Below are positions 1-64,000 of a DNA stretch of 64,000 bases, piece by piece; position 1 is the first letter of the stretch, and each line of letters starts with the position of its first letter. This DNA comes from Heterotrichella gracilis. Lineage: Eukaryota; Sar; Xanthophyceae; Tribonematales; Xanthonemataceae. The stretch spans positions 1-64,000 of the forward strand of contig JAULBX010017747.1 of assembly GCA_032358255.1 (NCBI GenBank), in the 5' to 3' direction. The position numbers and the translations under genes were made by a program. The notes under the pieces are model-generated. The model did no database searches and had not been told where the DNA came from. It worked only from the letters and a program-made list of their open reading frames with translations.

Positions 1-356
1 GGGACGCTAACTAGTAAACCCCACTTTTGAAAAATCACAAACACCTGAGAAAGCGCTGTTGCCACCTCCAACTGGGAACAAAATGCCTTGAGTATATTTA
101 ATGCGCATTTGCAGTAACAGACTACTACCAAGTTCGCGTTGATAGACCATTACCATGCTTTCAATAAATGTTTTCTTCCAGAGAATTACATTACTAAGAA
201 AAATGCCAGCTTGATACGACGAAGAGTGTCCAAAGCCGCAACTTGATGCCCATCAACGTTGCACAGCAATCAGTATTGATGTTGTTGCCTTCGTTTCCAT
301 CCCTGTTTGTCCTGTGACGCAAACCGCTGACTGGTTTGTCCATTCACAATTTGCAG

Positions 357-1725
357 GCGTGCACACCTGAGATGTGGTCAAGGATTATAAATCAGGTCAA
401 CAGCACGGGGCTGGAGGGGAATGTCAACGGACTGATGCAGGTGTTTCAGGTATGGTGTGTAGACAATACAGCAGTGCCTGGAGTGCCATTGCCCAATCCT
501 GTGTCCATCTCTTACCTGGGCATCATATACCAGCTAATTGCTGGATATGTAATTTGCATGAATTTCGTTCCTTTTCAAATAGCCCTTGTTGTACTAAATT
601 CATTCATTGTCCGCCTGCTCCCGTTCACCCTCGTGAATGATGCACCTACACAGCAGGTTGGCAACCGAGTAGATTTTCCATTTCATGCAGGCCCGCCTCC
701 TTATGGCCATTGACTGGCCTGAAGCCAGCCTACCCACGCACCCCGCCCTGCTGGAGCAAGCCAGGGCTGCTTGGATCGAAGCCAGGGACCAAACCATCAT
801 CAGCCCTTTCCACACCAGCGTGTCGTGCATGCTGCAGCAGCTGGGCGTGAAGCACAGGGTGGAGCAGCTGACCCAGGATGAGCTGCTGTCTGTCGACATT
901 GCCCTGGAGGGTAAGGGTTTATGGTTTAGGGTTTGGGGCGCATGGTCACGTGGGTAAGGGCTGGAATGCTTGTGCTGTTGGGCCATGTGGCACAGCAGTG
1001 TGTGCTACCCATGGGCTGCTTGGGACAAGGGACTATTCTCCTCATGTGCTTCCCGTATTCACAAACCTGTCACCTTACTCCCCCTGCCCCCCAGATTCCC
1101 GCATCGCCATTGAGGTTGACGGCCCCTCCCACTTCACCAGCAACCCCCCCTACGAGCCGCTGGGGCGCACCCTAGCCAGGCGGAGGCTGCTTGAGGCAAG
1201 GGGGTGGACGGTGATCAGCGTGCCATGGTTCCACTGGGAGACGGCATCGGACGAGCAGCGCAAAGCGATGCTGGTGCAGGTGAGCGATCGCCCTGTGCTG
1301 AATACTGATTACTTATGGACTGGTCGTGGTTTTTGTAAAACCCCTTGTGTGGTTCCACTGGGAGAGGGCGTGAAATGTGCATGGCAAGGCATGGCTGGTG
1401 CAGGCAAGGAGTAGTGGAGCCAGCTGTGCAAATAAACTAAACGCCACACATGTATGGAAGAAAAAAATTGAGTATGGGCCTATGGTCAGTGAGGTACTCA
1501 CACTCGTGACGGCATGACCAGCGGCATTTCTTCTTCTTGAAGGTGTTCTGCATTGCCGCATGTCTGAACCTTCCCTGCTGGCTTTGAATCAGTGCAGTAG
1601 TTAAGTGGATTCCAACGTGCGTGGGATTCTCATGTTCTTATTGCTGTTCTCTGACAGCTACTATCGGGTGTGGGCAGCTGGTCTATGCAGCCAGGGCGGG
1701 CGTGGTGGCGCGCAACGCGCAGTGA
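357..1725 (+). CDS. OPR/RAP-domain protein, 3' part only (paralogue of the next gene)
   Basis: Four 3' exons are visible: 357-449, 691-910, 1095-1279 and 1678-1725; the 5' part lies before the window. The exons are in phase and end at a TGA. The third exon encodes a RAP domain (IAIEVDGPSHF ... GWTVISVPWFHWE), a putative RNA-binding or nuclease-like fold found in organelle RNA-processing proteins of algae and apicomplexans. Exon by exon it matches the downstream gene: CTPEMW against CTPQMW, LLEQARAAWIE against LLEQARVAWIE, and a last exon starting LVYAARAG against LIAAARAG. The protein is therefore probably an OPR-repeat protein imported into chloroplast or mitochondrion to stabilise, process or translate an organelle transcript; the target cannot be read from sequence. 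The intron after 1279 carries a short echo of the RAP exon near 1350-1365. Positions 1-356 look like intron and hold no exon I can support. Confidence 0.8.
1350..1365 (+). repeat. Exon-edge echo, first OPR/RAP gene
   Basis: GTGGTTCCACTGGGAGA repeats a piece of the RAP exon (about 1226-1242) inside the following intron. Confidence 0.5.
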
Positions 1726-3648
1726 CCGGGAGAGGCTGGCGGGGATTCGCCACAACCCAGAGCTGCTGGAGCCACCATGGGGCGCTGCGCACCCCTGACT
1801 AGGCCACCGCTCTGGCGGCTGTGCGCAGCGCCACTTGAGGCTAGCAGGCAGTGGGGAAGGTGGTTCATCAGCAAAGTGCCGTACTTGGAGTCAGGCAAAG
1901 TCAGTAGTAGTTCCGACTCCCATTCAGGCCGATCTCGCCACCTTACCTGCCCGTGCCAATTCATCCCCATGAGGTTCTGTCTACCCTAACTTATTAACAC
2001 TGCTCCCTGCTGGGTCAGCTCCTCCCGCTCCTGCCAGCGCCACTCCTGCTGCTACCACGTTGTTCTCCTTTCTAGGATTAAATGTCTAGAGTGAACTGGT
2101 ATTCATTGCTTGTATCAAGTATTGAATTGTTGGCTGGCGCCGCTGGGCAAGGGTTGCACCTCATCGAGTACAACTTGAAGGCACCAGTCTGACTGTTATC
2201 CGCTTTGCAAATTACGTTACCAGCATGGTTGGAGTGTTTGCAGAGTAATTGAATTGGAACTGTTTTGTTTCTGTAGCGCACTCTTTGTGGTGTCTAAGCT
2301 GCGCATGTGCATGCCATGCATGCATGACACCTTGTGCACACGACTGCTGCACTGCAAGCACCAAGGACAGGGTATGGGGGGCAGCCAAGCATACTTACAA
2401 CCCAATAATGGCGACGAGAGAAAGAATGTGCTGCAGATGGCTCAAACAAATCCTCCCAGGCAGTCACTTATCGTCCACTTATGGAACGGATTTGAGGACG
2501 CTTAAGCGCGCTTGAGGACGCCCACGTGCCCCTAAAGCGTCCTCAGGTTCCCGCCATAAGTGCGAGTAAATTTCCGCGCTTTGGCACATTGTCACAGTGC
2601 AACTCAGCGTGGGAACCCCAGATTAGGGTTTGCATCGGTAACTGCACGCACATCTGCCGCATGCACCACTGGACCCCAATCTCTGCATATTTCCTTGTCA
2701 AGAACTGGAATTAGGAGTGCTGTGGATACTGACAAAGGTCCACTCGACCCACCAAAGCCTCTGGAGTAAAACAGCTGTTGCTGTACTGGATAGTGCTCAC
2801 CTAGGCCCACACGAAACCTTGCAGGAAGGCGAGCAGAGACGCCTAGTGCCAAGGGCAGTTTAAACTAAAGCGGGGAACGACATAGATGAGCTGGAAACAT
2901 CCAGCGGAAGCTTATTGCCCAAGCAGTTTGTGCCAAGTGAGTGTCCGCCACCAGTTCTGCGTCCGAATTGCTTGCTCCTCATCTGTCCGTATTGCAGCAG
3001 ACATCTATCCTCAAGTCTGTGCCAACTTATAGGTAGCTGCAAGTATGGCTGCTTGACACTCGTACCGGTCACATCCTCTCACCATGCTGAAATGTGCGTT
3101 ATATGCATGCTTTAGCATTATTGATGCATGCATATTCCTTGACGCTCATTCCACCATGTGGGCTGCCTGAAAGGTGTCAAAGTACCAGACAAGCTCTCTC
3201 TGACACCTGAAGAGGCGCTACAACCTTGCTAGCCACATACCTGGCTAAGCCAGCCACCAACGCTGGGATTCAGCAGCCGCACAGCACCCCTTGCGCATGG
3301 AGGCCCCCGCACCACCAGCTCCTGCGGCAGTGTGGGGACACCAGCAACTCTGTTGAGCCGCCACAGCCTCACAGGCCCCACTGCAATCTGCCTAGCCATG
3401 CGGGAAACTAACTGAAGGGCATGTGCAGTTGCAGCTCCTGGCATACTTTGGCTACCACCACGCAGCATGATGGTGGGGTTGAGTAGGTCCCCTTGCCTGG
3501 GCACGAGCACTTTGCAGGGCAAGCGATTGCTTGGCGGTGTCGGCGTGCGGTGCAGGTATGTGTGGATGCGTACAACGGGGTGCCATCCGAGCATAGTATG
3601 CTCACAAATATAGCCTTGCTGGAGTGCTCTGATATACGTGCGTTGTAA
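1726..3648. other. Intergenic stretch between the two OPR/RAP genes
   Basis: About 1.9 kb. It should hold the 3' UTR of the first gene, the promoter and probably an unrecognised first exon of the second. A small inverted repeat (arms about 2492-2504 and 2535-2546, TGAGGACGCTT) is visible. A 140-codon frame on the minus strand (3229-3651) has no recognisable domain and I do not call it. Confidence 0.5.
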
Positions 3649-3651
3649 CAC

Positions 3652-6600
3652 TTGTGGGAACGCTTTTGTGTTTGTTGTTTGTGTGTGGCACTTGTGGGCA
3701 CCCCTCAGCTAGCACCCCACCACCAGTTGCCGCGGCGCGTGTGTGTTTGGACAACCTCAAGACCAGTCTGCATACACAGGATTCCAAGGGAGAGTGGCAA
3801 TAGGAGTGCTGCAACAGCGCACGCCACAGGCGCCCTTTCACCTTCAGAACCAACAGAAAAGAGGCAACCGCGAGGAAACGGGGAGGGGGTCCCTCGCCAC
3901 AAGAGCGAGCGGCCAAACACAGGCAGTGTGTATCCACGCCAAAAGCAAAGAGATGGCCCTAGGGTTTGGCAGGGAACTGGTCAAAATCCAAATGGAGAGA
4001 ATGGAGCCAGTAGGAGGCGTCCGCCCATCCCATTGCAAAAGCGGCGAGGTGCACTGATCTCGATCAAGATCAACAAACAGATCACCAGTGCAGAGAAAGT
4101 TGAGGTATGGATAGCATGGAAGGCTGTATGCTTGGCGAAGCATTAGCTTCTATGTGCAAGCTTGTGCATGGTACAGCATCTGACTTTCTGCCACACCTGC
4201 TGGTGGCGCGAGTGCATTACCTCTTTGTGGATGCAGTACTGGGAATGTTGCCTCTACATTACACTCACATGTCCTCAGAGGATGCTCCTTGCATGGGCCA
4301 GCTGTTGTGCTCATCATGTCCTCTGGTAGCAATTTTTACAGAACTGTGATCATGTCCAATGGGAACCTCCTTGGTTGTGAACCGCGATTGCACCACATTG
4401 GCTGTCCACCAATCAAGGTGCATGCATAGGTAGGTTATCGAAAATCAAGTGATCATTTGCAATCGTCTCTAATCGCAGGACATCCTGGAGATTGTGCGCA
4501 CCCAGCGGTCCGATTTCGACGACATCTGCATTAGCACATGTCTCCACCGGCTGGCAAAAGTGGTCACCACCGTCCCTGGTCAGGCGAGGATGAAGGGGCA
4601 CCTGCTGGGGAGCGCTGACTTCAAGGACTTGCTGGTTCTCACAGGTATGGTGGCTGCCAGCTCAGCTGCAGATGCAGATGGATGTCAACAGCAAGTGTTA
4701 AGGTAGCTGCAAGTTGGCATACTGTCCACCAATTGTTTTTACTACAGCAGGCGTCCATGCACCTGCATGCAGCATGCAGTGTCAGCATCAGCATCGTCTA
4801 AATGAACTGAAACTTGCTGCAGCTTAGTTCATGCCAGTGCTTCGATATCAATAAAACACATTTCATCTTGCACATTTTCTCCATTGAATTCATCTGATTT
4901 AAGTTCTGTATTTCATTATAAAGGCTAGCCATTCCATTTTGTCCTATTTTCTTCCGCCCAGCTCACCAATCTCCCTTGCCTTGTAGAGAGCAGGCTGGAC
5001 GGCTTCCAGAGCCGCAACGTGGTCAACATCCTGTGGGCATTTGCCAAGGTGTCCTACGTGCCACCCCAGCCCTTCATGCCCAAAGTGTACGGCTACCTCA
5101 TCCACCACCTGCCCGGCTTCAACCCGCAAAACACCTCCAACACCGCCTGGGCGCTGGCCACACTCGACTGCCAGCTGCCGGAGGAGCTGATGGTGCTGCT
5201 GGACCAGCGCAGCGCGGCAACTATGGCAGATTTCAACGTGCAGAACCTGACAAACATCATCTGGGCGTTTGCCACCATGGGCTACAAGCCCTCGGGAGCG
5301 TTCAAGGATGCGCTGCAGCAGCAGATCCTTGTTGTAACCAACTCAGGGGGGATGAACTGCCAGGGCCTGTCAAACATGACGTGGGCATTCGCTGCCCTTG
5401 GTGAGTGCCCCAGCCAGCCGGTCCTCCAAGCCTTCCAACGGGAGATCATCGCACAGGCCAGCGACCTCAACTCGCAGGCCCTCTCCAACATCCTGTGGGG
5501 ATTCGCCACGCTGGATCGGGTCCCCAGCAGGGAGCTGCTGCAGCGCATGCAGGGGCAGATTTTACTGAAAGCCAACAGGTTCAATGAGCAGGAGCTGTCC
5601 AACACCCTGTGGGCCTTTGCCTGCCTGGGCCACCGGCCCGAGGAGGCGGTGATGCAGGCGCTGCTGAAGCAGGTTGCTGCAAAGGCTGCGGGGTTCACTG
5701 CCCAGGCCATTGCCATCACGCTGTGGGCTGTGGCCAAGATCACCAGCGGCGTGCAGAAGTCTGGGGACGTGAAGGCAGCTGTGCAGCAGCTGGAGCAGCA
5801 GATCCAGGGGAAGGCCAGTGGCTTCCAGGCGCAAACCATCGCCAACGTGCTGTGGTCGTTCGCTGTGCTCGGCTATGAGGTTGATCCAGAAGTGATGGCC
5901 TTTTTGGAGCTCCAGGTGGGGATGGTATTCAATTCCTGAAAATCCCGCATCCTTGTTGGTCATGTTAACTTTACTGGAATCTTTGTTTTCATGTAAGCTA
6001 AGTTGATTTCCTTCCTGCAGATACTGGCCAGAGCGCAGGACTTTGCTCCCCAGACCCTTTCTAACACCCTCTGGGCCTTCCCCAGCCTGGGACACCGGCC
6101 CAGCAACCAGGTCCTGGTTGTGCTCCAGGAGCAATGTGTTGAGAAGGCGGGGGGCTTCACTGCCCAGGCGCTGTCAAACAGCATGTGGGCCTTCGCAGCA
6201 ATGGCCTATTTCCCAAGTGAGGGGTTGCTGGACTCTTTCAAGCTGCAGGCAGTGGAGAAAGTTGGGGATTTCAGCGCGCAGTCGGTGGCCAACCTGGTGT
6301 GGGCGCTGTGCAAGTTTGCTCACTACGATCCAGCCATCATGGACTGTATGGCGGCGCGGGCAATCGCCTTGGGACAGGTCAGCATGTAAATCTTCAATGC
6401 ATGTCTGTATGACTCACAAACTCAATGTGGTTATCCTGCAAACCTGTTGCAAAAATTGCACATTATCACGTATCCTGTGCGTTGCAAAATGAAGAAATTA
6501 TCGGACCACTTGCTTGAAACCCTCGTTTGGGACTCCTTTGTCACTTCTTGGATCCCTTGCATGAAAGCCTTCTTCTTGTTTTTTGGTTTGCAGGAGCTCA

Positions 6601-8816
6601 ACCATCAAGATGTCAGCACTCTGATTCTGTCATACGCTGGCTTGGGTATCCACCAGCCAGCCTTGGTGGAAGCTCTCAGCGGACGGGTGGAGAAGAACGT
6701 TGAGAATTTCATACTGCAACAGCTTGCAAACATCCTCTGGTCCCTGTGCGTCCTACAGGTAAACAGTTTATCATCATCATTTTATATATCGTTTATTCTT
6801 CAACAGCTCAAACCGACCAGGAGGGGTGTCTGACTCGCGTGTGTGTCGTCTGCCCTGCTATGTGGAGGGAACAAAGGTCACCCAATGTGAACATGCCCTC
6901 CCTGCTTGTTTCAGGTGTGCACCCCCCAAATGTGGGCATTGCTGGTGGGCCAAATCGAGAAGCTGGAGGTCGATTGGGAGGGGCTGAACCAACTGTATCA
7001 TGTGAGTTGCATTTTCCAGCAGCCACAGACCTGCTTTCTAAACTCAGTCTGCACCCTTGCAAAAATTAGCAGCAGCTGGGATAAAATGCTCTCTGTAAAC
7101 TTGGAATTGACCATGGTGCAATTTCATATGCACACTTCCCGCACTGTGTCGTTTAACCCGTACTGTGGACACACACCGCCCATCAGCCCGCATTGTACAA
7201 AACAGGGGAATACAATGGAGGCAGCATGCATAAAAACCATATTAGCATAATATATCTATGTTGGTCTGTGTGCTCGTGGCTTTGAACGGCTCCCACCCCA
7301 CTGCAGACCCCTCACCTGCTTCTGGGTTCTTGCCATGCAGTCGCACCTCCTCATGGCCCTGAACGAGCCCGAAATTGCTCAACGGGTCGATCCCAAGCTG
7401 CTGGAGCAAGCCCGCGTGGCGTGGATCGAGCAGGCAACCGAGAACATCGTGGTCAGCGACTTCCACAGGGAGGTCTCCGGTGTGCTGCACCAACTGGATA
7501 TGGGCCACACCATGGAGCAGATGACGCAGGACAGGCTGTTCTCTATGGACATCGCCCTGAAAGGTGAGCCTAAACCCTAAACCCTAAACAGACTGTTCAT
7601 AGTTGATGGACATCGCCCTGAAAGGTGAGCCTCCACCCTAACCCCAAGTCTGCATGCTGCTGCTCCAGATAGGGGTATCGTTAATTTTATTGCACTGCAC
7701 TGTAGTTGATGGCGCTCGAGTCACCATATGCAAATTGAAACAGGAGCTGTGTGCGGCATCAAACGCAGACTATGATGTTTGGCATTAATGTTATGCTCAA
7801 AATCGTGGGAAAAGGGTTCCATCACAGAACTCAGCACCACACCACCTGAACAAACAACACACTTGGCAAGCCCACACAACTCTTCATCTCTCCTCGCCCT
7901 ACATTTCATTACAGTACAGTACATGCGTGCCCCCAGAGGGATGCATCCACAACCTTCACCCCTCCTTGCCCTTGCCCCCCAGATTCCCGCATTGCCATTG
8001 AGGTTGATGGCCCCTCCCACTTCACTAGCAACCCCCCCTACCAGCCGCTGGGGCGCACCCTAGCCAGGCGGAGGCTGCTTGAGGCAAGGGGGTGGACGGT
8101 GATCAGCGTGCCATGGTTCCACTGGGAGACAGCCTCTGATGACCAGCGCAGGGTCATGCTGGTGCAGGTGAGCAATTTCACCGTGTTAAATACTGATCTG
8201 GTAAATGTCTAGGGTCCGTGATGGTGATGGCAAAACCCTAGTGATCAGCGTGCCCTGGTTCCACTGGGAGACGGCGTCCGATGACCAGCGCAAGGCGATG
8301 CTGGTGCAGGTAGGGATGAGCCTGTGGGTGACATGCAGTGCAGTGTTGTCTTCGCACAGCCACAGTTACATCAGTACACCATGCTGATCAGCGGGCAAGA
8401 CTTGTGGATACATTCTCATTATGCTGTGGGGGCAGACATGAAAACAAATAGATCCATGCAACTTGCATGGATACACCCTCGTGGCCGTGGAATCGCATCG
8501 CCACACTGGTACGCCTATGCACCTCCCCAACTGACTTGCCCTGTTAGATAGTTAGTTAGTTACATGCATTCCAGCACAGCCAGATTAGCAGTCAGTCTTG
8601 CACATGCGGCGCCACGCAGCTGTTTGAACCACTTATTGATCCCACGCTTGCTCTGTACGGTCCTCAAAACCCTGCTCAAGGGCCTAGCCTTGCCTGCTGC
8701 ACCTCCCCACCGCTGCTGAACTTTTAAATTTGATTTGCCTGCAGCTGATTGCGGCGGCCAGGGCGGGACAGGTGGGGCCACAGCAACAACAGCAGCCAGC
8801 CACTGCTGTGTTGTGA
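3652..8816 (+). CDS. OPR-repeat protein with C-terminal RAP domain (organelle RNA factor)
   Basis: Exons: about 3652-4104 (left limit uncertain), 4479-4644, 4987-5915, 6021-6377, 6594-6758, 6915-7001, 7341-7563, 7983-8167 and 8745-8816; all junctions are GT-AG and in phase, about 878 codons. Thirteen degenerate ~38-residue repeats with the core LSNxLWAFAxLG fill 4987-6758, the octotricopeptide type whose helical pairs bind RNA base by base. The RAP domain is in the exon 7983-8167. A basic, Ser/Thr-containing N-terminal exon suits an organelle transit peptide. The segment ITSAEKVEDILEIV followed by STCLHRLAKV resembles the N-terminal part of other RAP proteins. The first exon's reading frame has no ATG (its open frame begins at about 3649 after a stop), so the true start lies in an unrecognised upstream exon or the exon begins later. 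The last intron holds a 69-base echo of the RAP exon end (8241-8309). Target transcript unknown. Confidence 0.85.
7571..7589 (-). repeat. Interstitial telomere-like repeat (CCCTAAA)
   Basis: TAAACCCTAAACCCTAAAC directly after a donor site, between an exon end and its echo. Confidence 0.9.
7589..7632 (+). repeat. Exon-edge echo with donor site, OPR/RAP gene
   Basis: Bases 7606-7632 are identical to 7545-7571, the last 19 bases of the exon plus eight intron bases including its GTGAGC donor. Similarity extends upstream to 7589 (ACAGACTGTTC). A (TAAACCC) run fills the gap at 7571-7589. Confidence 0.9.
8241..8309 (+). repeat. 69-base echo of RAP exon end, with donor
   Basis: Encodes VISVPWFHWETASDDQRKAMLVQ-like residues in an open frame, followed by a GTAGGG donor, inside the intron 8168-8744. 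The parent is 8099-8167. It starts just after CCCTAG, an acceptor-like site, so it could act as an alternative exon. Confidence 0.9.
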
Positions 8817-10985
8817 TGATGATGTTGATGGCGTGATGACCACATGGCAGGGATGCTCTGAGCCAGGGAGAAGTGTTCGCCAGGGACGTTTATGCTTCAC
8901 CCTACCTTCCCCCCCCTTAGCAAGTGCCCCGCAGCCCGCACCTGGCCCCCCTGCCTCTTTGTTCTCGCCTCACCACTTCAGCTCCCATCCGTTTCTTTCC
9001 TGTGCACATCGCGAGTGTGCAAACTTGTAGCTCCTCCCGGACAAAATGCGGCATGTACCAAGTGTTACAGCAGTGTGGCAGTTAGTGTAGCATTTTATTT
9101 GGTTGTGGCCTTTTTAGGCCCAACCCCAGTGGACGGGCCAGTGCTCCTTAAGGTTTCAAAATTGCAGCACAGCTCAGGGAAGCAAGGCCAAGGCGTGCAC
9201 CAACACAGGAGGTTGGCTCTGGGATGGGCGTATTTAATATTTAGGAGTTTTCTCATCATAGATTAGTAGATTGTAGTGCATGGGGATCGCACTGATGCCA
9301 CATGCTGCACATGGAAATTGACTAAAGTTACATTTTTTTGGCAAACCTGGGGTTGGACCATTTATATCCTGGACTTGGGGATGGACCACATAATTTATGA
9401 CAATCACTGATGAGGGTATGAGTTAGAGGCCTGTGAGGGTACCGCACAACCCCACATTATTTGCTCAAGCCTCGAGAGCTTGTGTGCATCAGATATGCAT
9501 TGTGATTGTGGCTGGTTGTCAACTGGATGCCATCATGGCATGGCATGATGATCTGAGGTCTACCAGGGAAATTTCTGATGGATTTGTTTTGGTCCCAGTG
9601 GGCTTGTGTTGGCAGCCGTTCTGCCAGTGGCTCAGCCTGGTTGTGGTGCCCTAGTGCAAGTCATGCCTGATCAGTGGCCCCCAGCCCCTGGGGCTTACAT
9701 CCGCCTCTGTAAGTTTCAAAGTTACCGGCGGTCATTATGATACTGAGTATGATACTGAGTGACGTAAAGATTGTCAATTCCGCATTGCGATCCAATCGCA
9801 TAGTAATGAGTTGTGGTGCCTTGGTGCGCGCCAGTGGTCCCCTCACTCCTCCTCTCAGGTTGCGCATCCCCTTTCTTTCTTTCTGAAAGACTCAATTTGC
9901 ACGCCGGCAGCATTGGTCCTGGACCAGGGTCACCGCGTCTGCTGTTGACATCAGTAGCCAGCATGGCGCATCCCATGTTACGATAAACGCGAATTTGCAA
10001 CATGCTGCTTGTTACAGATGCGCGCGGTAGCACGGGTACAACCCAAACGACACCCTCGCGCTCCGTCACGGTGCAAGTGCATGTTGCCGCAGCGACTAGA
10101 GTCGACACCACCAGAAGGGTTGCCAAACAGGCGCACAGCACCTTTATAATTGGGCAAAAACAAAAAGGAACCAACGCTAGTACAGCCACAGCAATCTATG
10201 TCAAACTTAGGCAAACACTACAGGCACGGGACTACCACTACAAGAATACACGCGTTCGCATGTACCATAGATACAGAACAGGGCGGCTCAAGGGCAATGT
10301 TTGCACATCATACCAAATCCCCATCCCCATCCCCACCCACCCCTTCTCTCCCCAAAAGTCTGAGAATGGCACCTGGCCAGTACACATAGCCAGCTACGCA
10401 GGGTGCATCCAAGCGGAGTTACTAGGAAGAAAAAAAAGACAGTGCCACTACAGTTGGCAACTCATCCGTTCAACCAATGTACACAGCACCATTTCAACTT
10501 TCCCTTTCCCAGTACCGCACAACTGCTGTTGGCCCAATGGCCCAGGACTAATGAGAAGATCTGCGGTAATCTTTGCCAGCAATAATGCGCATATCGCGAC
10601 TGTGCGCTCCTTGGCTTAATGTAGGAAATGGACAAATCCTCGAAATTTCCACCAGGGTCCCTCCCTCCCATCCTCGTAGTGTACCTATGCGTATTTTTTC
10701 TCAATTTCCGTGTTTTGGAAAAGCGCAACTGCAGCTGTGCTGTGCGTACACACCACCAGAGCAGCGCGCGTCAGTGTGCGCGTTTTAGAGCATGCGTTCC
10801 AAAGGGTTGGCATGCCACACACTGCCATGCATTCGCTAAAACAGCCTCATTCCAGCAATTGCAGCTCGAAAACCAACTATGTAGAGAGTACATCACCAGT
10901 GCGCCCAACGCTACAAACCCCTCCTCCCACCCAAAGCTACCCCCCCTTCCCTTCTACCCAGCCCACCCCACCCGAGCCTCCCCAT
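8817..10985. other. Convergent 3' region between OPR/RAP gene and GOGAT
   Basis: About 2.2 kb, AT-richer than the exons, with no exon I can support. It should hold both 3' UTRs. Minus-strand TGTAA elements near 10011 and 9696 could be GOGAT poly(A) signals, giving a long 3' UTR. It contains two copies of a short dispersed motif (about 9640 and 9815) described separately. Confidence 0.5.
9640..9875. repeat. Short dispersed motif, two copies here and one near 30351
   Basis: TGGTGCCCTAGTGCAAGTCA ... CAGTGGCCCC at 9640-9682, TGGTGCCTTGGTGCGCGCCA at 9815-9840 and TGGTGCCCTGATGCGAGCCA at 30351-30370. The last two run on into GTTGCGCATCCCC or TGTGCGTCCCC and T-rich sequence. Possibly remains of a SINE-like element; no clear A or B box. 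Confidence 0.45.
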
Positions 10986-28032
<17,047 letters not shown>

Positions 28033-30040: not shown

Positions 30041-30180
30041 CACCACACATAAGCACATCAGGCAGGCAATTTTGCAGCCGACTTCTGCGCCTTCAGAGGC
30101 AAGTAAACAGCCGGTTCGAAATTCACATGGTATGGTGTGGGAAGATTTACTCTTTGGTGTAGTAGATTCACTGTCTACCG

Positions 30181-30299
30181 GCAACTCGGCTGCAATGTAT
30201 AGTGTGGCCATCTTGAAGTTCAGTGTGGGTCACAGGGATCACTGTATACAACTCACAGTGAACTTGAGGATAGGCCACACTATATAGCAGCCGAGTTGC
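30181..30299. repeat. Inverted repeat after F-box gene
   Basis: Arms 30181-30227 and 30254-30299 pair (GCAACTCGGCTGC, TAGTGTGGCC, AAGTTCA with their complements), an imperfect ~45-bp stem of MITE or hairpin type. Confidence 0.8.
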
Positions 30300-30427
30300 T
30301 GGTTATTCAAGCTGGCGTTGGCTAAGGCCTGTGCTTGACCGTTCTGGCTGGTTTGGTGCCCTGATGCGAGCCAGTGGCCCCTTCTACGCCCTTGTGCGTC
30401 CCCTTTTTTTTTTTTTTTTGAAGCAGC

Positions 30428-30604: not shown

Positions 30605-30609
30605 TGTAA
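30605..30609 (+). terminator. TGTAA poly(A) signal, F-box gene
   Basis: UGUAA is the usual green-algal poly(A) signal. This copy lies 565 bases after the F-box stop. A five-base motif is weak evidence alone. Confidence 0.35.

Positions 30610-45572: not shown

Positions 45573-45590
<18 letters not shown>
45340..45590 (-). repeat. Two extra diverged copies of the last JmjC exon's 3' edge
   Basis: Three successive units each carry a TACCACCCC core, a CTG/TTG-rich stretch and, in two, CAGGGCGCCA: about 45335-45455, 45456-45565 and the genuine exon end from 45566. The extra units lie after the stop codon, so tandem growth here is in the 3' UTR rather than an intron. Confidence 0.65.
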
Positions 45591-54727
<9,137 letters not shown>

Positions 54728-55362
54728 TGCGCCCGTCCCACGCCGCAGATTCTCCTATCTACCTTCAAGCACCCACGGCAGTAGTACGCCACAGACATGG
54801 GGCTGCTCCTGTAAGCATTCCTCTCGGTTCAGCGTGCCTGCACGCTGCTTTCAAACCTAGTCCCCGAACCGGTGAGGCTCCTCGCGAGGGAAGACGCGTT
54901 ATTCAAACCTGCCACGGACTGCTGACCGCCTCTCGATGCAAACTCAAAACCATGCCACACGAGCGGTGCACGAGCCAGCAGCAGTGGGGACAAAGACGGG
55001 CGAGCGATGGGAGCAACAGGCTTTTCGCTGCACCTCTGCACCAAAAGAGTCTGCAGCAGCTGGTGCTGCAACAAATCGAGGGGAGCATCATATAGGTTCC
55101 TCCTCGCACACTCGGGGCAGTGCCAGCTAAGCACAAATTTAATTAGATGGCTATTTTTGCAGTGGCGACCACCATTTATAATACAAGCGTTTCACCTTGT
55201 GTGCGGACTTGGTAGCAGTGATATCAATAGCAAGGCTTGCCAAGGTTGAAGAACCCAGTGCATTGATACCTTCCCTTTGGACCACCGATCGTCGCAAGGA
55301 GCTGCTTCCTGACGTGGGGGCAGTGGTGAACCGTTTGAACTCGCACCAACCCCAGCTGCAAA
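54728..55362. promoter_or_regulatory. Divergent promoter region, JmjC / PUB gene
   Basis: About 630 bases between the start codons. A TATA-like TTTATAAT at 55175-55182 lies about 185 bases before the PUB start. Otherwise only position supports promoter function. Confidence 0.4.
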
Positions 55363-56162
55363 ATGGGCTACGCAGGTCAGTGTATGGTGTGTGGCATATG
55401 CAGCTTTTGTGCTTCTTCTGTTTGCACGAAAACTGACCACTTTATGTGTTGCGTCTGCAGGCTATGTCCCGGCCAAACTACCACCCAGCAAGCTCACACC
55501 CTTCCAAGCTTCCCTCAAGCTAATTCAAAACCTAGACACGTTGGAGATCCTTGGGAAGCTCATAAAGAACGTGGTTATCAACCCCACTGAAGAGAAGTAC
55601 AAGAAAATCCGACTGACCAACGCCAAGATCCAATCTGCAGTCGTGGAGGTGTCTGGTGCCCTCGATGCACTGTTGGCCCTGGGGTGGGTGTTTGATCCAG
55701 AAGACGAGGCAAACCTTGTTGTCCCCAAGGGTGTCAAGCTGACAATGGCAGAGGTAAGCAGGGTTCAATTGCGAGCAGAGGGCGTGGTGTGTGGTTTGAG
55801 GTTGTGTGTGTGCTGGTGCCATTGCAGGGCCAGTTGTTTTGACGTGTGTTTGTGTATGCTTTCAAACTGTGGGTACTGGGTTGTTTGGTTCTGAAGCTGA
55901 AAACAACTCTGTGCAGGTGAGGGAGATTGAGGACACCAAGGACAGGTTGAAAAAGGAACTGGCCAGGCACATCAGCAGGAGCTCATCCTCATCCTCGATA
56001 AGGAACGAGGAGCAGGAGAAGTTGAAAGCTCAGCTGGAGGCAGACAAGCTGGAGCGTGCAGCACGCGACCCTGTGGACAAGGCCAGCAAGGCGCAGCCAC
56101 TGGGGCCTGGCACCATGAAGACAGCAGGCGACGCTGGCCTGACCGGGGGAGGCTGCTGCTGA
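55363..56162 (+). CDS. PUB-domain protein (p97/CDC48-adaptor type), 183 aa
   Basis: Three exons: 55363-55375, 55461-55753 and 55917-56162, in phase. The 13-base first exon gives ATG GGC TAC GCA G. The PUB domain fills about residues 18-98 (LKLIQNLDTLEILGKLI, YKKIRLTNAKIQ, LLALGWVFDPED). PUB (PNGase/UBA or UBX-associated) domains bind the C-terminal tail of the AAA-ATPase p97/CDC48, linking it to ubiquitin-dependent degradation or peptide N-glycanase. Next comes a short charged helix with a run of serines (HISRSSSSSSIRNEEQEKL) and a Gly-rich end GGGCC. No UBX, UBA or transglutaminase domain follows, so it is shorter than UBXN6 or PNGase. The CC end could be lipidated, which is only a guess. 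It stands head to head with the JmjC gene. Two TGTAA elements lie about 420 bases after the stop. Confidence 0.88.
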
Positions 56163-56577
56163 AGCCGCTGGAACAACACCACTTGATACAATTCGTCACT
56201 TTCATCATATTCTTTCAGCGCCCTTCCATAGCATGATGGGGCACAAGTGATATCCCCGTGGGTAGCTGAGAAGTGCTGTTACAGTACTTCAGTGATTGCA
56301 ATTCTACCTTATGCCCGCTACCGTGTAGCGGTTGTTCCTGTATTTGTATCTGCTGCGAGGGCTAGGCCGCAGCTTTGGACTGCAGTTTTAGGCAGCTTCA
56401 CTTTGCTGTACCATTTTCAGTCTATTGACTACCCCCGGGCATGCACGTGAATGCCAGATTCAGTGATATTATTTGAATTTGTACTCAACTGATGAGCAGC
56501 ACAAAACAAGTATTCGTGGCCGCCCATTGCAAGGCAATAAACACTGTCAGCGGGAAGTAAACTCAGCGTTCACATTG

Positions 56578-56595
56578 TGTAAGGGATATGTGTAA
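56578..56595 (+). terminator. Two TGTAA poly(A) signals, PUB gene
   Basis: TGTAA at 56578-56582 and 56591-56595, about 420 bases after the PUB stop codon. Confidence 0.4.
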
Positions 56596-56811
56596 CCGAA
56601 TCAGACTCAACACCAAAGTTCAATATGTCTCAAACTGAAGCCAGCACCCAATGGTCTGAGTCAGCTTACAACCAATTGCAAGGTGCAGATCCAACCAACC
56701 CACGTGTTCGGCATCCACGACAGGCCCCAGCATTCACCCCCACAATTATGCTTCCTCACACCACTGACAAGGGGCGCAACTGGTCGGCATTGATGGCACA
56801 GCAGTTCACTC

Positions 56812-56816
56812 TTACA
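56812..56816 (-). terminator. TGTAA poly(A) signal, RF1 gene
   Basis: Minus-strand TGTAA 44 bases after the RF1 stop; a second lies near 56666. Confidence 0.35.
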
Positions 56817-56859
56817 GCGCTGTGTCCAGTCCTTTGCATTGCCCACTTTGACTCGAGAG

Positions 56860-59800
56860 TTAATCCGCCAGACTCGCCAGCATCTGCGTCTGGTAGTGCA
56901 CCCCCAGCGCCCCAATGAACACATCCAGCCGCTCCCCGCCCAGCACCTCCTCGATGCCGTGCTCCGTGACACCCACCCGGTGGTCCGTCACCCGGCCCTG
57001 CGGGAAGTTGTAGGTCCGAATGCGCTCCGACCGGTCCCCGCTGCCCATCTGGCCCTTGCGGTCCTTTGAGAGCGCCTGCATGCGCCGCTGCCTGCATCCA
57101 TGGCAGGGCAATCAATCAGCCAGGCCCATGTGGGCCATTGTTGCATCGCATGCATGGGGACACTGTCATGTCATTCCAGATTCATGCAGAGCGTTGCCAT
57201 GTCAACTCAGGCCCATGCATGTAAGCCCCAAACCCTTACTATGGATGGAGTCGTTTGGTTAAGTTGCCAACTAGGCTCGCACATTGATGAAAGTGTGGAC
57301 ATGCATGGCACGTCATTGGCAACGCTGCATGGGCGGAAACTTTCTCATCTTAGATAACGCTGCCTCACATGCTCACCACCCACTGCCGAGACATTTACCC
57401 AGCGTGCGTATCCCTGCCCCACCACTGCCCCTGCACAGAAAGCACAAGCAGCCCAACACCACAATCGCCCTTGCACACCCCACCACATGCCACACCGCCC
57501 ACACCCACCCACCCCCGCCGCGCACCTCTCCTGCTCAAACAGCCTTGCGCGCAGCACCTTGAGCGCCTTGGCCTTGTTCTTGTGCTGGGACCGCTCGTCC
57601 TGGGAAGAGGGGGCCGCCAAAACTAATTAAAAGGGGCAAGCAACAGCAACATCAATTGCGTTTGTTTTTGGTCAATAAGTGTTGTCAGCTGCAACTGTAG
57701 GCTACACAATGTACGTTAGCAGCCAATGCATGCATGCACCCACACCCACACCCAATTGCGATGATCATAATACTTGAACATGTCTGTGGCTAATGCAGAA
57801 GAATTTGCTTCATGAGAATTATTAGTGATTTCCACGACATTGGCCCCCACCTGTATGGACACCACCAGGCCGGATGGCACATGCGTGATGCGCACAGCGC
57901 TGTCTGTGCAGTTGACGTGCTGCCCACCCGCGCCACTGGAGCGGTAGGTGTCGATGCGCAGGTCCACGTCCTTGATCTCAATGTCTACCTGCATGGGTGG
58001 GTGGGGGTGGGGGATGGGTTGGAATTGGCGGGGGATGCGGGGTGAATGCGCAATTTTCTCAACGTCACCCTGCTTGAAGGATGGGTGGGAATTGCGGGGG
58101 GGTGCAGCGTGAAAGGCGGTCCTTCTGCTACGCAATTCTGACATCGCAATTTACATCTTGTTGCAATATTTTTCTCATCTTGGACCAGCTCGTCCTAAGC
58201 CCAGTTTGGCTCACATGGCTGCACACCCACCTCGTCTGCCTGTGGCAGAATGGCCACCGTGGCCGCACTAGTGTGCACACGCCCGCTGGACTCCGTCACC
58301 GGCACACGCTGCACACACACACAAATATATATAATTCAGCACACACAAAACTCGAATTCAGCGCAATTCCATCCATGCCTGCAGCTTGATTCCCATCCTT
58401 CAAGCCCTTGACCACTGTAATCACCTCCCCTAGATCAACAACTTCCTCCACAACCACAGGCACAGGTGGCGGTGGGCCAGAAAGAAAAAAAACAGGCCAT
58501 TTACGTCTAGTTTATGCACATCCATATTGCAGTTCCACACCCTGGCTGAAGTGCTGCCTGAATCCCCTGCAGATTCACCCATCCATGGATGGCCGTGCAT
58601 GCGAGGGGGGGTCTCCTCACACCTTTAGCGAGGTGTAGAATTGCAAAATGGATGTTGATAAACAAGGATTAGAAAACCTACCACTGCCAGTGCCTATGGC
58701 GATGGGGGGACGTCTTCCACTTCCTTTCGCAGGTAACAGGTAATGGATATGGCACTTGAATCAAAATCACCAGTCTACAATTCCAAGGTTCACCTTCAGC
58801 CCAAGAGCCCCATGCACCTTGCCTTCCCCGGTGCCACCCATTACCTGCACTCGATGGATCCCGCTCTCGAATTTGAGCGCCCCAAAAATGGCCCCCGATC
58901 CCGAAATGGCCGCGCTCCCCGATTTGCACCCCCCGTGGTCCGACTCGGCCAGCTCCAGAATCTCATATTTCCACCCCTTGAGGGCGGCGTACTGCTGGTA
59001 CATGCGAAACAGGTCCATGGCAAACAGCGCAGCCTCGTCGCCCCCCGTCCCCGCGCGCACCTGCGCAGCCACCACCCCTTGGCGCATCAGCACCGGTGGC
59101 GCATGCGCCATGTGGCATGCCGGTAAATTTGCGCAAATGCGCCATGTCAGCAGAGCAGGGCAGGTTGCACCAACCACATTATGGTACAGCACACCGCACA
59201 TGATTCATGTCACACATGATTCGTGTGACATGCCCCGACCACGAGCTGCTCTATCATGCAGCTGCACAGGGAGAAAAACCACCCCCTCTTTGGGGTTGAG
59301 AGTTTGGCCAGTAGTACTAGTACACCCTGGCCGACGTACCTCTAGTACCACCCCCCTGTCATCCGCCTCGTCCTTGGGCACCAGAGACAGCAACAGGGAT
59401 TGCTCAAGGGTGGGGATCTGAGAGGGCGGAGGAGGAGGGGTTACTATTTTGCACGAGGAGAGCCCTAGGGCCTACAACACATAAGGGCCTACATGTCCAG
59501 GTGAACGCATGGTTGGTGGCCGCATGTATGTAACTATAGGTACAATCAGCAGGTAATAATAGACAGTATAACTTGTACTTCACACAATACTGTTGCTGCC
59601 TCTGACCCAGCTTGCCCATCATGGCACAGATACATGCTGCAGAATGGGATTGCATCAGATGTGATATAATGTGCCCAACATGCGACAGAATGGATTGCAA
59701 TAAAATGATGATTATTGCTGGAACTTCAAGGCCCTGTTTTCTATTTATCCTACTGGTACCGCTCATGTGTATGAAGCATATTTAACAGGTAGAACGGCAC

Positions 59801-60767
59801 ATGCGAAACATTCCAACGCCCACCTGCTTATGCAGCAGCGCCCTTTCCTCCTCAGCCATGCTGACCATCTCCCTGTCCCCCTTGGCCTCTGAAACCATGG
59901 CATCAAGCTCATCCACCTGGCAAGACACAACTACAATTACAATCACATTCACATTGTCAAATATTATGGCATCCTGGCCGTCCACACACGCACAATGCAG
60001 GAGGAGGGTCTACCCAGAACGCCCCGATAAAAGGGAAGCCACGTCAACGAGGGGTGTTGGCACAAAACCCAATCTGTAATGCAATGCAAATATGATGTTG
60101 TGCAAGGGTGCCCCAACCACTCCCTCCTCTTGCGCCGCCACGTGTTTAGGGTTCTGCCACTAGAGTTTTGCGCTAGGGTTTTTTGCTGGGGTTCCCTCTC
60201 ACCTCCCTTCTCTTCCTCCGTAGCGTGGCCAGCGCCTCCACTGTGGGCTGCAGGTCACTCAGCTCCTTGCCAAACTTTGCCAGCTGGATGGGGTGCAGGT
60301 TGGCGGAAGATTCGTCTGACAATGGGGAGAAGGTAGCAGTAAGGAAGGGTGTGGCGGTGTGGAGATATCCGTGAGGATGCAGTGCGTGTGTGGTGGGGGT
60401 GCGGGTGGTGGGGGGAAGCGTGGGGGATGCTGTGGAGTGGGCGCATGGTGGATGGGTCGGGTGCGGGGGCGACAACTAAGGTAGGCTTTAGGGTTTACCT
60501 GGCAGCTCCAAGCACAGATGTTTAGGGTTGAGGGTGTGGGGGTTTTTACCTGACAGCTCCATGCACAGCTGCTCATATCTGGATGTTATTCTGTCCAGCT
60601 GGGCCTCAAGGCCAGGGGTGAGGCGCACGGTAGGCACTGCAGCGGGGGGAAAGAAACCCTAAAACCCTTGCGGTATGAGCCAGGGAGGTCAAACCCTAAG
60701 CGCCACCTATGTCCGTCTCAGCAGGAAGGATGGCGGCACCATGTTGGCAAGCGAGGCAACATGGCAT
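56860..60767 (-). CDS. prfA: Organelle peptide chain release factor 1 (bacterial RF1 type)
   Basis: Reads UAA/UAG on organelle ribosomes and triggers peptide release. Exons: 60767-60707 (tentative), 60636-60550, 60315-60203, 59916-59824, 59417-59340, 59060-58845, 58308-58231, 57988-57851, 57599-57526 and 57091-56860; all in phase, 389 aa. The family marks are present in order: [30 protein letters not shown], the RF1-specific tripeptide PVT ([10 protein letters not shown]; PxT class), [10 protein letters not shown] with the catalytic GGQ, and the C-terminal [13 protein letters not shown] then [18 protein letters not shown]. The PxT tripeptide argues against RF2, which has SPF. The first exon gives only 19 residues before the conserved domain, short for a transit peptide, so plastid versus mitochondrial targeting and the true start are open. 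An echo of the exon end 60550-60570 sits at 60486-60510. A TGTAA on this strand lies 44 bases after the stop. Confidence 0.93.
60486..60510 (-). repeat. Exon-edge echo with donor, RF1 gene
   Basis: TTTACCTGGCAGCTCCAAGC repeats the donor edge at 60545-60564, with TTTAGGGTT in between. Confidence 0.8.
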
Positions 60768-62218
60768 GTCATTGAATTGTCAGAAACATTATGTTGAAGG
60801 AATGGTTGTGTCACTTGCCAGCTGCAAATCTCCTCACAGCAAGCTCCCACAGTGGGCGGTGGGCAGGGAAGGCTGTTTTGTGCAGGCTAGCGGGGCTCGT
60901 CCAAGCAGTTGGTTCAGTGAATGCCCTGTTCAATGCGACCAAAATTGGGTTTCAAGTTGCGCACCAGTGCCATGGAGCACAGGTTTGGACTAGTGGGTGG
61001 TGTCACCAGGCGGGGGGGTTGTACAGAGCAAGATGGCAATGAACAGTAGCATCGGTATGCAGACTTCTCACTACCACGTTGTTAGACGATGTAAGCAACA
61101 GCAAAGAACCCATATGGGCGACACTGCTTCCACATCAAGAGTCTAGCGCCAAGGCAATCACCACATGGCCACCGTGACCCACCTGCCGACAGGCCATGGC
61201 AAGGTTTTCCACACACTGCGTCCTTACCTCCAAGCAACCCCCGACGTCGTCCGCTGCGCTGCGAGCCTGCAGAGCACCTTGTGGGCACGTGCGCACCACA
61301 CCATGTTGCATGCATATATGTGTCACACCACACCGTCATGCATGCATATACATGTGTGGCACGGTGGCTAACGACGAGTAGTGATCCAGAGCAATGCCAG
61401 GTGTTTCAAAATCGACTACGTTGTCCAGACAGCGATGAGGTGGCTGTCGACGCGATAGAAGCAAGCCTATAGGCTGTATGCATGCATATGTATCCACGGC
61501 GGCTAGCGACGGGCAGTGATCTCAACGCATGCTAGCTACGACGACGTTGCATTCACAGTGAGATGCGCCTGACTCACGCGATAGAAGCGACCGAACAACG
61601 GCAGAGGTACATATGATTTATACCGGTAGTATGCAGACTCTTGACGTCAGAAGTAACCCGGTTTCGCCTCCGTGCGTGGTTTCCCGCGCTAAAATGTTGT
61701 AAATAAAGCTAGCTTCCATCAACTCCGCGTACAAGGTTTACACACGGTTGCGGTTCATAGTGTTTTCAGGCGCAACGCTTGGGTATTTATTATTCTCTGG
61801 AGCACAGACGCTTGATCCAGCAAGTTGCTCCGCACATGCTCATCAAGTACCATCGTTGTTGTCTAACGCAGCGAGCTCAACCTGGGGCCAAAGCTGTCTA
61901 CTCAGACGGTTGTGCATGGTGAAGCAGTCCGTTACAGCCCAGATCGAACTCTGACCGCGCCACGCGCTATTGGATCGTCCAGGACACCACCATTGGTTTT
62001 TCTTCCAAACAGCCCGTATGAAGTAAGCAAGTGGGTGTGGCCAGGAGGCCACACTCACCGCTTAAGATCACTGGACAGCACTCAAGGTTACAACAGTCCT
62101 GTGTTGGCAGCCCATGCCTGGCTCAACCCTTGGAGCTTGCGGTGTCAATGACCCCATCCACCCTCGTGTGGGGCCACCATCAGCCACCATGTAAAGCAGC
62201 GCCCTCAACCCATACACC
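60768..62218. promoter_or_regulatory. Divergent region, RF1 / membrane protein gene
   Basis: About 1.45 kb. It may hold a further RF1 5' exon that I could not find, and both promoters. A diverged two-copy tandem repeat fills 61336-61600. A 68-codon ATG frame at 61748 has no recognised domain and does not splice in phase in any way I could see. Confidence 0.35.
61336..61600. repeat. Diverged tandem duplication, about 140-base unit
   Basis: Unit one (about 61336-61474) and unit two (about 61477-61600) share CATGCATATAC/G, CGGNGGCTANCGACG, GCAGTGATC-like, ACGTTG and CGCGATAGAAGC in the same order. It lies in the RF1/membrane-gene divergent region. Confidence 0.7.
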
Positions 62219-63917
62219 ATGACCAGTTCAGGTCCTAGCTACAAGGTAGAGCCTGCAGGAACGCACCATCAGCTGAGCCATTGTTGCCCGCACCCGCCAC
62301 ACCTTTTGCTGATCAAGTGGGGTTCCATGGACTGGGGTGTGTGTTGTGCTGCAGGTGCTCGTCAGCTTCATTTTGGCCACTGGCGTGTTCACCTTCTTCC
62401 TGCACCAGCGGCTGCAGTACAGGGTACGTGCTGCACACGCATATATTCACGCACATATAGGGTTCACACGCATATATGCACTACGCATAGGCCTGCCTCG
62501 GCCCCTGGCTTTGGCCTTGGTTTCACACCAAGGCCCTGCCTGCATTTGGCCTTGATCTTGCACCACGTGTGAAGCACCAAACCGCCCTTCCAGTGCACTT
62601 GCCTGCTATGAGCAACACTGACTGCCAACCGCACTCACGCGATTTGCATCAATGCTGCAGAACCTAGAGCAAGATGAGAGGACTGTCCGATGGGCACAGG
62701 TAAGGGTTTAGGGTCTAGGGTCTTCGCCCAACCAGCACAGCAGCGCACCTGCTAGCACCTGTCACACGCCTCTGCACTGCACCATGCTCAGCATAGCACT
62801 GCACCTGCGCTTGTTGATCAGCCCGATGCGCTTTTGCTCAGCGACCCCACTGTCGTTGCATCCCACTCACCCACTGCCTGCCTTGCAGCTTGAGACGCTC
62901 CGAGCTGTTGAGAAGCTGACTGAGCAGCAGTCAGTCAACACAAAGAAGCTGCTGGAGCTGGCCAAGGAGGTGGGGCATAAACCCTAAACCCTAAGTTACA
63001 AACCCTAATCCTAAACCCTTATCACCCAGGGAGCTGTTCAACCCGGCCCAGGCTGTAGGGCTGTGTAGGGGCAGTTGATGGTCACTACGTACATGCACAA
63101 GAAACTCTTTGAAGCCGAGCAATGGCTGTTGGCATACCATTGTGGCAAAGCAAGTAAGAAAGGAGAATGCAATTCCCAATGTGGGGCGTTTGCTGCCAGG
63201 TGACAAGCTGTCTAAGAAGCTACAGGCTGGGTTGGGGGTTTAGGGTTTAGGGTCAGGGTTTGTGAATATAACTGTGGCGGTGTGTGTTGCTAGGTGACGG
63301 AGCTGTCCAAGAACCTACAGGCAGGGTCAGTGAACACCAACCCATGGAGCTCCTACCTGGCAGACGACACAAAGGTGGGTGGTACCTACCCCATGCAATT
63401 TCAGCACCACCAGCATAGCGTTATGGGGGTAAAATTAATCATGCTTGAGGGTTTAATTTTCCGTGGCTGGATCCGGTATTCTTGGACATTTATTAAACCA
63501 AACCCCACATTCAACTTTGGTGCATGGATCAAGCAACACAGCCGGGTCAGCAATCAGCCCTGCACTAGCGGCGCAGAGCAGTGATAACGTTGCACTCTTT
63601 ACGCCTTGTAAATTAGTCCTGCAGAAACTTGACAGCATGTACTGCAGGAGTTTTTTCAGGATAATACTTCCAACACAATTTTTCTGATTGTTTCATCCAA
63701 TGCTCCCAACCTAATTTGTGGACCACGGGCCTCTCTCGCTTTGTGCCCTCCTCCCCGCTCACCCCATTACCCCCGCTTCCCCCCTCCAGTCGAGCTTCAT
63801 CGACAGTGGGTACCGGGACGCATGGAGCACAAACTCCTATGCCACCACACGCCACCCCAACCCGCCGCGTGCGCCCTCGCCGCCCCTGGCGCCTGCGTCG
63901 GAGGACGAGGTCAAAAA
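62219..63917 (+). CDS. Single-pass membrane protein with coiled coil, 3' end beyond window
   Basis: Six exons join in phase: 62219-62245, 62355-62423, 62661-62699, 62889-62969, 63294-63374 and 63790-63917 (donor GTGCGT). The gene continues past the edge. The first nine residues lead straight into one membrane helix (VLVSFILATGVFTFFLH), then a basic stretch (QRLQYR), a heptad-like coiled coil (LETLRAVEKLTEQQ ... KKLLELAKEVTELSKNL) and a Pro/Ser-rich tail (NPPRAPSPPLAP). I do not recognise the family. A short N-terminus, one helix and a long hydrophilic coiled-coil tail suggest a tail facing the cytosol or stroma and taking part in assembly. Echoes of the fifth exon's start (63197-63231) and of the last exon's end (63988-64000) flank it. 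It is head to head with the RF1 gene. Confidence 0.62.
62978..63020 (-). repeat. Interstitial telomere-like repeat (CCCTAAA), degenerate
   Basis: Several AACCCTAA units starting nine bases after a donor. Opposite-orientation copies follow at 63236-63255 and 63922-63947 in the same gene. Confidence 0.88.
63197..63231 (+). repeat. Exon-edge echo with acceptor, membrane protein gene
   Basis: AGGTGACAAGCTGTCTAAGA and following bases repeat 63292-63326. TTTAGGG repeats lie between the copies. Confidence 0.9.
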
Positions 63918-63987
63918 GTGCGTTTAGGGTTTAGGGGTTAGGGTTTGCATGCCACATGTTGGTACCTGTTAAGGTGCCCGGGTCTAG

Positions 63988-64000
63988 GATGAGGTCAAAA
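63988..64000 (+). repeat. Start of an echo of the last exon end, cut by window edge
   Basis: GATGAGGTCAAAA repeats the exon end at 63905-63916 (GACGAGGTCAAA). Its full extent lies outside. Confidence 0.45.

Follow-up and report, generated by a model that had tools for sequence, protein, structure and literature searches.

Exon edges are duplicated in the adjoining introns of Heterotrichella gracilis, often around telomere repeats: possible scars of DNA break repair

Introduction

How introns are gained and how they grow is a long-standing question for which few direct traces are available. The stretch considered here, namely, the opening 64 kb of contig C178 (JAULBX010017747.1, positions 1 to 64,000; hereafter the window) in the 68.5-Mb, 903-contig assembly of the xanthophyte Heterotrichella gracilis, is a eukaryotic, intron-rich sequence that raises this question in a concrete form: why do its introns repeatedly contain a copy, hereafter an echo, of the edge of the neighbouring exon? 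An earlier note, made from the letters of the window alone, described these copies and ascribed them to local tandem duplication, but did not notice the telomere repeat of this genome, which lies beside them and is the main clue.

Exon Edges Are Copied into Their Own Introns

The detailed study covered 324 kb, comprising the window and 26 further 10-kb stretches (27 in all), picked by contig number and thus not at random. A gene model self-trained on these 324 kb (donor CAG/GTGAG and acceptor TGCAG/G, the slash marking the junction; 636 exons; minimum intron 45) supplied the exons and introns, which are predictions with a homology check limited to a few borders of one gene (glutamate synthase). 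In the edge test, the 60 bases at the end (499 donors) or at the start (499 acceptors) of each exon were aligned with a 300-base portion of its own intron. Inverted orientation and introns exchanged between stretches (2,283 + 2,330 = 4,613 pairs) served as controls, and the cut-offs, scores of at least 30 and at least 26, were of our own choosing.

At a score of at least 30, a direct copy was found in the own intron of 41/499 donors and 23/499 acceptors, i.e., 64 of the 998 edges, compared with none of the 998 edges in inverted orientation and none of the 4,613 exchanged exon–intron pairs (0/2,283 and 0/2,330). At the lower cut-off, 50 donor and 24 acceptor echoes were obtained, with two inverted and two exchanged-pair matches. 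The self-alignment suggested in the earlier note thus yielded a clear excess over both controls, and its statements that exon edges are duplicated in adjoining introns, always in the same orientation, are confirmed. Echoes occur in 18 of the 27 stretches, with at least one in each. The excess of direct repeats does not depend on the gene models: in the window, direct repeats 20–700 bp apart outnumber inverted repeats and Markov shuffles, and exact 14-mers separated by 101–160 bp amount to 11 direct and no inverted pairs, with a mean of 0.1 over 10 Markov shuffles. In 264 kb, x-drop extended pairs scoring at least 16 numbered 107, versus none in three shuffles.

With regard to the window alone, the strict cut-off retains 11/218 edges (9/109 donors and 2/109 acceptors). 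Weaker pairs at 13718, 18877 and 50769 score below 30, and those at borders 12839 and 60430 were found by eye. A laxer scan gave 23 pairs, 15 of them with the telomere repeat in the gap, although three of the 23, all within the coding exons of a single RAP-domain gene, resemble protein repeats. The figure of about 20 cases in 64 kb given earlier was therefore right as to their kind, but somewhat high for strict echoes.

The copies lie a median of 114 bp (donor) or 110 bp (acceptor) from their original, with a range of 61–162 bp in the window. In 54 of the 64 echoes, the copy comes within 12 bp of the edge; the ten others were excluded from the whole-unit, filler-side, identity and donor-score tests (n = 54). 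Aligned copies measure 18–60 bp, and identity among the 54 ranges from 0.79 to 1.0, in agreement with the view that they are diverged. As for the splice junction, GT or AG is retained at the projected place in 40/64. When overlapping duplications were collapsed to the best one per locus, 73 loci remained, of which 10 span a donor, 14 an acceptor and two both, whereas 24 join exon with non-coding sequence, 16 are non-coding only and seven exon only. Random placement would give 6.9, 6.6, 1.0, 16.1, 33.5 and 8.9, respectively. The deficit of non-coding pairs may partly reflect faster decay where neither copy is conserved.

Growth of Existing Introns and Splice-Site Use

The earlier note took the duplications for a route of both intron gain and growth. 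The signature of a new intron would be a copy of the end of the upstream exon placed at the 3' end of the intron, or one of the start of the downstream exon placed at the 5' end; these were found in 2/499 and 0/499 cases at score 30, and in 4/499 and 0/499 at score 26. In the same vein, only two of the 73 non-overlapping loci touch both edge types, whereas a tandem duplication that creates an intron would place both of its ends in the two copies. Nearly all copies thus reproduce the same border, which argues for growth of existing introns rather than gain, and the formation of new introns is rejected as the main route in view of the rarity of its signature.

The suggestion that echoes act as decoy or alternative splice sites fared no better. 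GT has been lost in 9/35 echo donors, and in the 26 that keep it, the extra exon stretch is interrupted by a stop in 21 and forms an open, in-frame extension in three, with spacings modulo 3 of 10/10/6. Frame-conserving alternative exons are rejected on these grounds. The mean donor score is 4.1 bits for echoes versus 9.8 for real donors, although 21/35 echo donors reach at least 5 bits and 13/35 equal or exceed the real donor. Judging from these sequence features, we read the echoes as mostly neutral by-products.

Association with the Telomere Repeat

The telomere repeat of this genome is TTTAGGG, contigs C70 and C140 starting with (CCCTAAA)n, and the sequence between the copies often contains AAACCCTAA or TTTAGGG. 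Words of the repeat are some of the most frequent 8-mers found in 264 kb. In the 324 kb, 301 separate telomere-like sites were located, 277 in predicted introns, 14 in exons and 10 elsewhere, predicted exons shorter than 40 bp between introns being treated as intron in this and the later counts. Their density per 10 kb amounts to 14.2 in introns, 1.4 in exons and 3.3 in non-genic sequence, untranslated regions (UTRs) being unannotated, and 168/499 introns harbour at least one site. Apart from those at contig starts, the largest exact (CCCTAAA)4 cluster among the matches listed is found at C173:89224-89497.

Direct repeats flank 60/292 telomere-like sites, compared with 59/1,620 control positions, all of them over 200 bp away from the nearest such site (Fisher p 7e-21); nine of the 301 sites lay too near a stretch end to be included, and inverted repeats flank none of the 292. 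Conversely, the telomere repeat lies in the gap of 33/100 local duplicates, versus 13.6 by random placement. It is found within 60 bp of the edge for 23/41 echo donors versus 66/458 other donors, and for 8/23 echo acceptors versus 49/476 others. With regard to the kind of duplication, the gap holds the repeat in 25/50 border or exon-plus-non-coding duplications, in 1/16 non-coding and in 0/7 exon–exon ones; with a looser repeat-alignment score and gaps of at least 10 bp, the corresponding values are 24/50, 0/14 and 0/6.

Telomere-like sites are concentrated at intron edges. They peak 10–30 bp after donors, with 61 sites in 9,980 bp (60–62 per 10 kb), about eight times the density of the intron interior (78 sites in 102,536 bp, or 7.6 per 10 kb), and 48 lie in the 14,968 bp found 20–50 bp before acceptors, with 50 per 10 kb at 20–30 bp. 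The two orientations of the motif stand at 38/38 within 30 bp of donors and at 36 versus 4, in favour of sense-strand CCCTAAA, within 30 bp of acceptors. Since sense TTTAGGG would constitute a false acceptor (TTTAG/G), this bias suggests that the repeat enters on either strand and that harmful insertions are then removed by selection on splicing.

The same neighbourhood is visible genome-wide. The donor word CAGGTGNG is followed within 21 bp by AAACCCTA at 1,013 places, versus 373 at a distance of 101–121 bp, and by TAGGGTTT at 1,280 places versus 450, whereas reversed-pattern controls gave 2 to 5 each. These counts refer to places, so that a single donor preceding a repeated motif may score twice, as is visible in the lists. 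Among the far counts are echo pairs with a spacing of about 100 bp (for instance, C12:125981/126091, C16:146481/146591, C21:117685/117781 and C23:72994/73106/73218). Repeat and duplication are thus firmly associated, but the sequence in which they arose and a part played by telomerase are conjectural.

Origin of the Echoes

With slightly less than even confidence, we propose that the echoes are scars of recurrent DNA break repair at or near exon–intron borders, often with telomeric filler. A break whose ends are long and staggered, or some equivalent event of copying and joining, would occur at or near a border, and fill-in followed by rejoining would leave two direct copies of about 20–60 bp spanning it. 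In about half of the cases, telomere-repeat DNA (TTTAGGG on either strand, often irregular) would come to lie between them, presumably supplied by telomerase acting on free ends or as captured telomeric DNA. The outer copy would keep the working splice site, so that the gene survives, while the inner copy and the filler would become intron; the intron would thereby lengthen by about 100 bp, and the inner copy would then decay. The 13 youngest echoes (at least 95% identical) speak to the filler. Their intron halves have an identity of at least 0.70 in four (five with L032:9535) and of 0.67 in two, and fall within the range of unrelated introns in the others. The telomere repeat is present in the filler of eight of the 13, of which three are whole-unit duplications and five are not, and these five point to new DNA between near-identical copies. 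Some telomere-free fillers look AT-rich (L022:7878-7935, L022:2314-2360, near L028 4223 and near L031 6648), the mean G+C being 0.47 for telomere-free fillers and 0.53 for intron starts, and might derive from a different supply of patch DNA, for example from organelles.

Several observations weigh against this proposal. Homology runs through the intron half, as in a plain tandem unit, in 9/35 donor and 9/19 acceptor echoes (18/54), and a 19th candidate, L032:9535, is identical over 30 bp before reaching an assembly gap; in some of the remaining echoes, similarity ends no more than a few bases from the splice site. In 28/64 echoes, the sequence between the copies lacks any exact 8-mer of the repeat. 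The repeat is present in the filler only rather than beyond the echo only in 15 versus 5 cases within 60 bp (p 0.04), a difference that shrinks to 12 versus 7 within 40 bp (p 0.36). Comparison of the strand of the repeat with that expected from extension of the nearer 3' end gives 20 agreeing and 19 disagreeing sites (p 1.0); loci in which the repeat directly adjoins a copy (3 bp or less) number 7/26, versus 4.9 expected. The border excess of the motif exceeds what a splicing filter alone should give and is not fully explained by it; preferred breakage in exons or at borders, or an earlier function of the motif at these places, is a possible cause. Furthermore, exon-involving pairs may be over-represented because one conserved copy stays recognisable longer. 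No allele or paralogue lacking the copy was found when two echo-rich regions were compared with the whole genome, the matches being short and diverged. Two versions of the idea have been given up, namely, pure telomere insertion, dropped because one third of the echoes are plain tandem units, and the simple model in which telomerase extends the nearer 3' end, which failed the strand and abutting tests. The recurrent local tandem duplication invoked in the earlier note survives insofar as direct duplication of borders is recurrent and lengthens introns, but plain tandem units account for the 18 or 19 cases above only. Our best reading is that two kinds of event coexist, plain tandem duplications making up about one third.

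The absence of a strand or abutting signal and the extra tandem case L032:9535 weaken the break-repair explanation and strengthen another, in which telomere-like motifs were present at intron edges first, for some other reason, and act as fragile or G-rich sites where replication stalls; small tandem duplications, produced by template switching or polymerase-theta joining, would then have copied border and motif together. This sequence of events, which seems to us quite possible if on the doubtful side, accords with the whole-unit homology, with the 13/54 echoes that have the repeat on both sides within 60 bp, with the 66/458 echo-free donors that also carry the motif within 60 bp, and with the lack of support for insertion at the joint. 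It would also account for tandem arrays of donor-plus-motif units, such as C23:72994/73106/73218 and C76:114116-114805, the latter made of units of about 96 bp, each with a donor-like word and TAGGGTTT. It sits less well with the youngest echoes, only four or five of 13 being whole-unit duplications, and with the surplus of filler-only over far-side-only repeats, although this surplus is not significant at 40 bp.

The other explanations have far less in their favour. Selection could keep the echoes as back-up, decoy or regulatory splice sites, as the retained GT or AG, the 21/35 echo donors of at least 5 bits, the 13/35 that match or exceed the real donor, and a pair at 13718-13796 that would add 17 in-frame codons might suggest; the nine lost GTs, the stops in 21/26, the even 10/10/6 spacing, the low mean score and identities graded from 1.0 to 0.79 make this improbable. 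Introner-like mobile elements targeting splice borders would likewise be recurrent, genome-wide and found at gene borders. With the telomere repeat masked, there is no match at score 32 among 1,971 between-locus filler pairs, every copy derives from its own exon, the length of the repeat is variable, and the two echo-rich regions searched against the genome have only short diverged matches elsewhere; a mobile element was rejected for want of a common filler body and on that search, and we consider such an origin very improbable. Lastly, that the echoes arise by chance, annotation error or assembly artefact is scarcely conceivable: the gene models are predicted and L032:9535 runs into an assembly gap, but the exchanged and inverted controls are empty, the copies are diverged, and the direct-repeat excess is independent of the models. 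A chance, inverted or hairpin origin is excluded by the 0/998 inverted edges, the shuffles and the 0/292 inverted flanks.

Comparison with Known Systems

In Daphnia pulex, neointrons form at staggered double-strand breaks, and 55/90 have internal repeats (PMC4202315). As in that case, direct repeats of exon ends are found here across a filler, and break repair would supply intron sequence; the trait of terminal exon bases repeated beyond a filler is present at 64/998 edges, with 0/998 inverted. The Daphnia introns are new and their exon-end repeats measure 4–12 bp, whereas here introns already exist, the copies concern the same border and they span about 20–60 bp, and the frequent telomere repeat in the filler sets the present echoes apart (PMC4202315). 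Repeats of 4–12 bp fall below the threshold of the edge test and may exist too, short-repeat new introns included.

Mammalian breaks can receive an inserted telomere repeat, with target duplication at some loci (PMC7215372, PMC2246262), so that the resulting interstitial telomeric sequences resemble the present sites in placing the own telomere repeat inside chromosomes next to duplicated target. Simple duplication concerns a minority of them, with 3/66 horse, 6/130 rodent and 4/25 primate loci, and in the available text these loci are not tied to splice borders, in contrast to the 60/292 directly flanked sites and the intron-edge peaks observed here (PMC2246262, PMC7215372). Plant telo boxes are, similarly, short AAACCCTA motifs in genes, for which telomerase acting on transcription-linked free 3' ends has been proposed; in Arabidopsis and rice they favour 5'UTRs, with intron densities of 150.7 and 72 per Mb, compared with 1,244 telomere-like sites per Mb of predicted intron here, a value counting both strands, which the plant paper may not do (PMC3022908). 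In the green alga Chlamydomonas, interstitial telomeric repeats are possible relics of chromosome fusion; unlike ours, they are not described at intron edges or with copied exon edges in the available part of the source (PMC6549138).

Local duplication supplies intron sequence in intron gain by tandem genomic duplication as well, but there the duplication creates a new intron (PMC4974935), the signature of which is seen here in at most 2/499 cases at score 30. Introners share with the echoes the character of a recurrent, genome-wide source of intron sequence (PMC9860276), and differ in that no common element body exists among our 64 fillers. Each of these systems covers one part of the picture. 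Among the open-access matches listed, none describes copies and telomere filler together, which is weak evidence that the combination is undescribed.

Genes and Echoes of the Window

The window contains a pair of gene copies of the RAP-domain type (372 to about 8800), an NADH-type glutamate synthase (GOGAT) gene (10986-28032, minus strand) and a JmjN/JmjC gene (about 45573-54719, minus strand), which ends in a glutamine run encoded by a long CAG/CTG repeat at 45592-45686. Three plus-strand echoes from the edge test accompany the first pair. At 1226-1403, the exon end at donor 1279 is followed by a decayed echo ending at 1403 that has lost its GT. At 7545-7629, the exon end with its donor (7545-7568), a telomere-like filler (7569-7589) and an identical echo (7606-7629) succeed one another. 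At 8108-8309, the exon end extends to donor 8167, AAACCCTA lies at 8233-8240, and an echo of at least 60 bp that keeps its GT ends at 8309. The matching paralogue borders 1279 and 8167 were both seen by eye to have an echo, which suggests, in a comparison made by eye and with no tree, that it predates the gene duplication.

In GOGAT (minus strand), the predicted protein aligns to solved enzymes gap-free at the junctions of borders 25030, 18922 and 12193, and with a three-residue difference about 10 residues upstream of the junction at border 25620; the outer copy is thus the coding one at these junctions. The acceptor pair at 12161-12281 (exon start 12161-12195, echo 12247-12281, telomere-like repeat between) was detected by the edge test, as was 24904-25098, where two telomere-like motifs separate the echo (24904-24984) from the real exon end (25019-25098). 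At 18877-18939, an echo (18877-18901) is separated by a 13-bp telomere-like filler from the real exon end and donor (18915-18939); it comes from the repeat scan and lies below the edge-test threshold. The edge test also gave 25498-25649 on the same strand (echo 25498-25520, exon end 25627-25649), with a telomere-like motif between. The donor pair 13718-13745 and 13769-13796 (13718-13796), again separated by a telomere-like repeat, was recognised by the repeat scan and the gene model, which takes the inner donor, adding 51 bp in frame (17 codons). Going by this model, it is possibly an alternative donor and an exception among mostly neutral echoes.

The remaining echoes are all on the minus strand. 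Edge-test examples are 46662-46759, with a telomere-like filler between the echo (46662-46684) and the exon end with donor (46737-46759), and the acceptor border at 50404 (50404-50566), whose diverged echo is about 162 bp off with a TTTAGGG repeat in between. At 49514-49655, both donors, those of the echo (49514-49554) and of the exon end (49615-49655), continue into TAGGGTT. At 47970-48126, the echo (47970-48021) and the exon end (48074-48126) are separated by an irregular, telomere-like filler of about 53 bp; the copies, which resemble each other more closely than in any other of the 11 strict window echoes, consist of two ungapped pieces with 100% identity, or 98% over 51 bp when gapped. 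As the filler (about 48022-48073) is irregular between near-perfect copies, the irregularity was probably there from the start. The repeat scan further yielded three copies (48521-48579, 48630-48675 and 48740-48798) and a fragment (48353-48371) at 48353-48798, with telomere-like filler between them, and a pair at 50769-50866 (echo 50769-50792, telomere-like filler, exon end 50843-50866), which scores below the edge-test threshold.

Significance

One genome thus offers many scars of differing age, with a recognisable filler that hints at a candidate enzyme, and a break-repair view of intron growth becomes testable. It could be that, in this lineage, telomerase or telomeric DNA regularly takes part in mending breaks in transcribed genes, prefers borders and is a main source of intron growth; this wider reading, which builds on a mark in 168/499 introns (one third) and a duplication at 64/998 edges (about 6%), we hold to be unlikely. 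More generally, the findings suggest that the telomere repeat spreads through genes, where it is tolerated by way of splicing.

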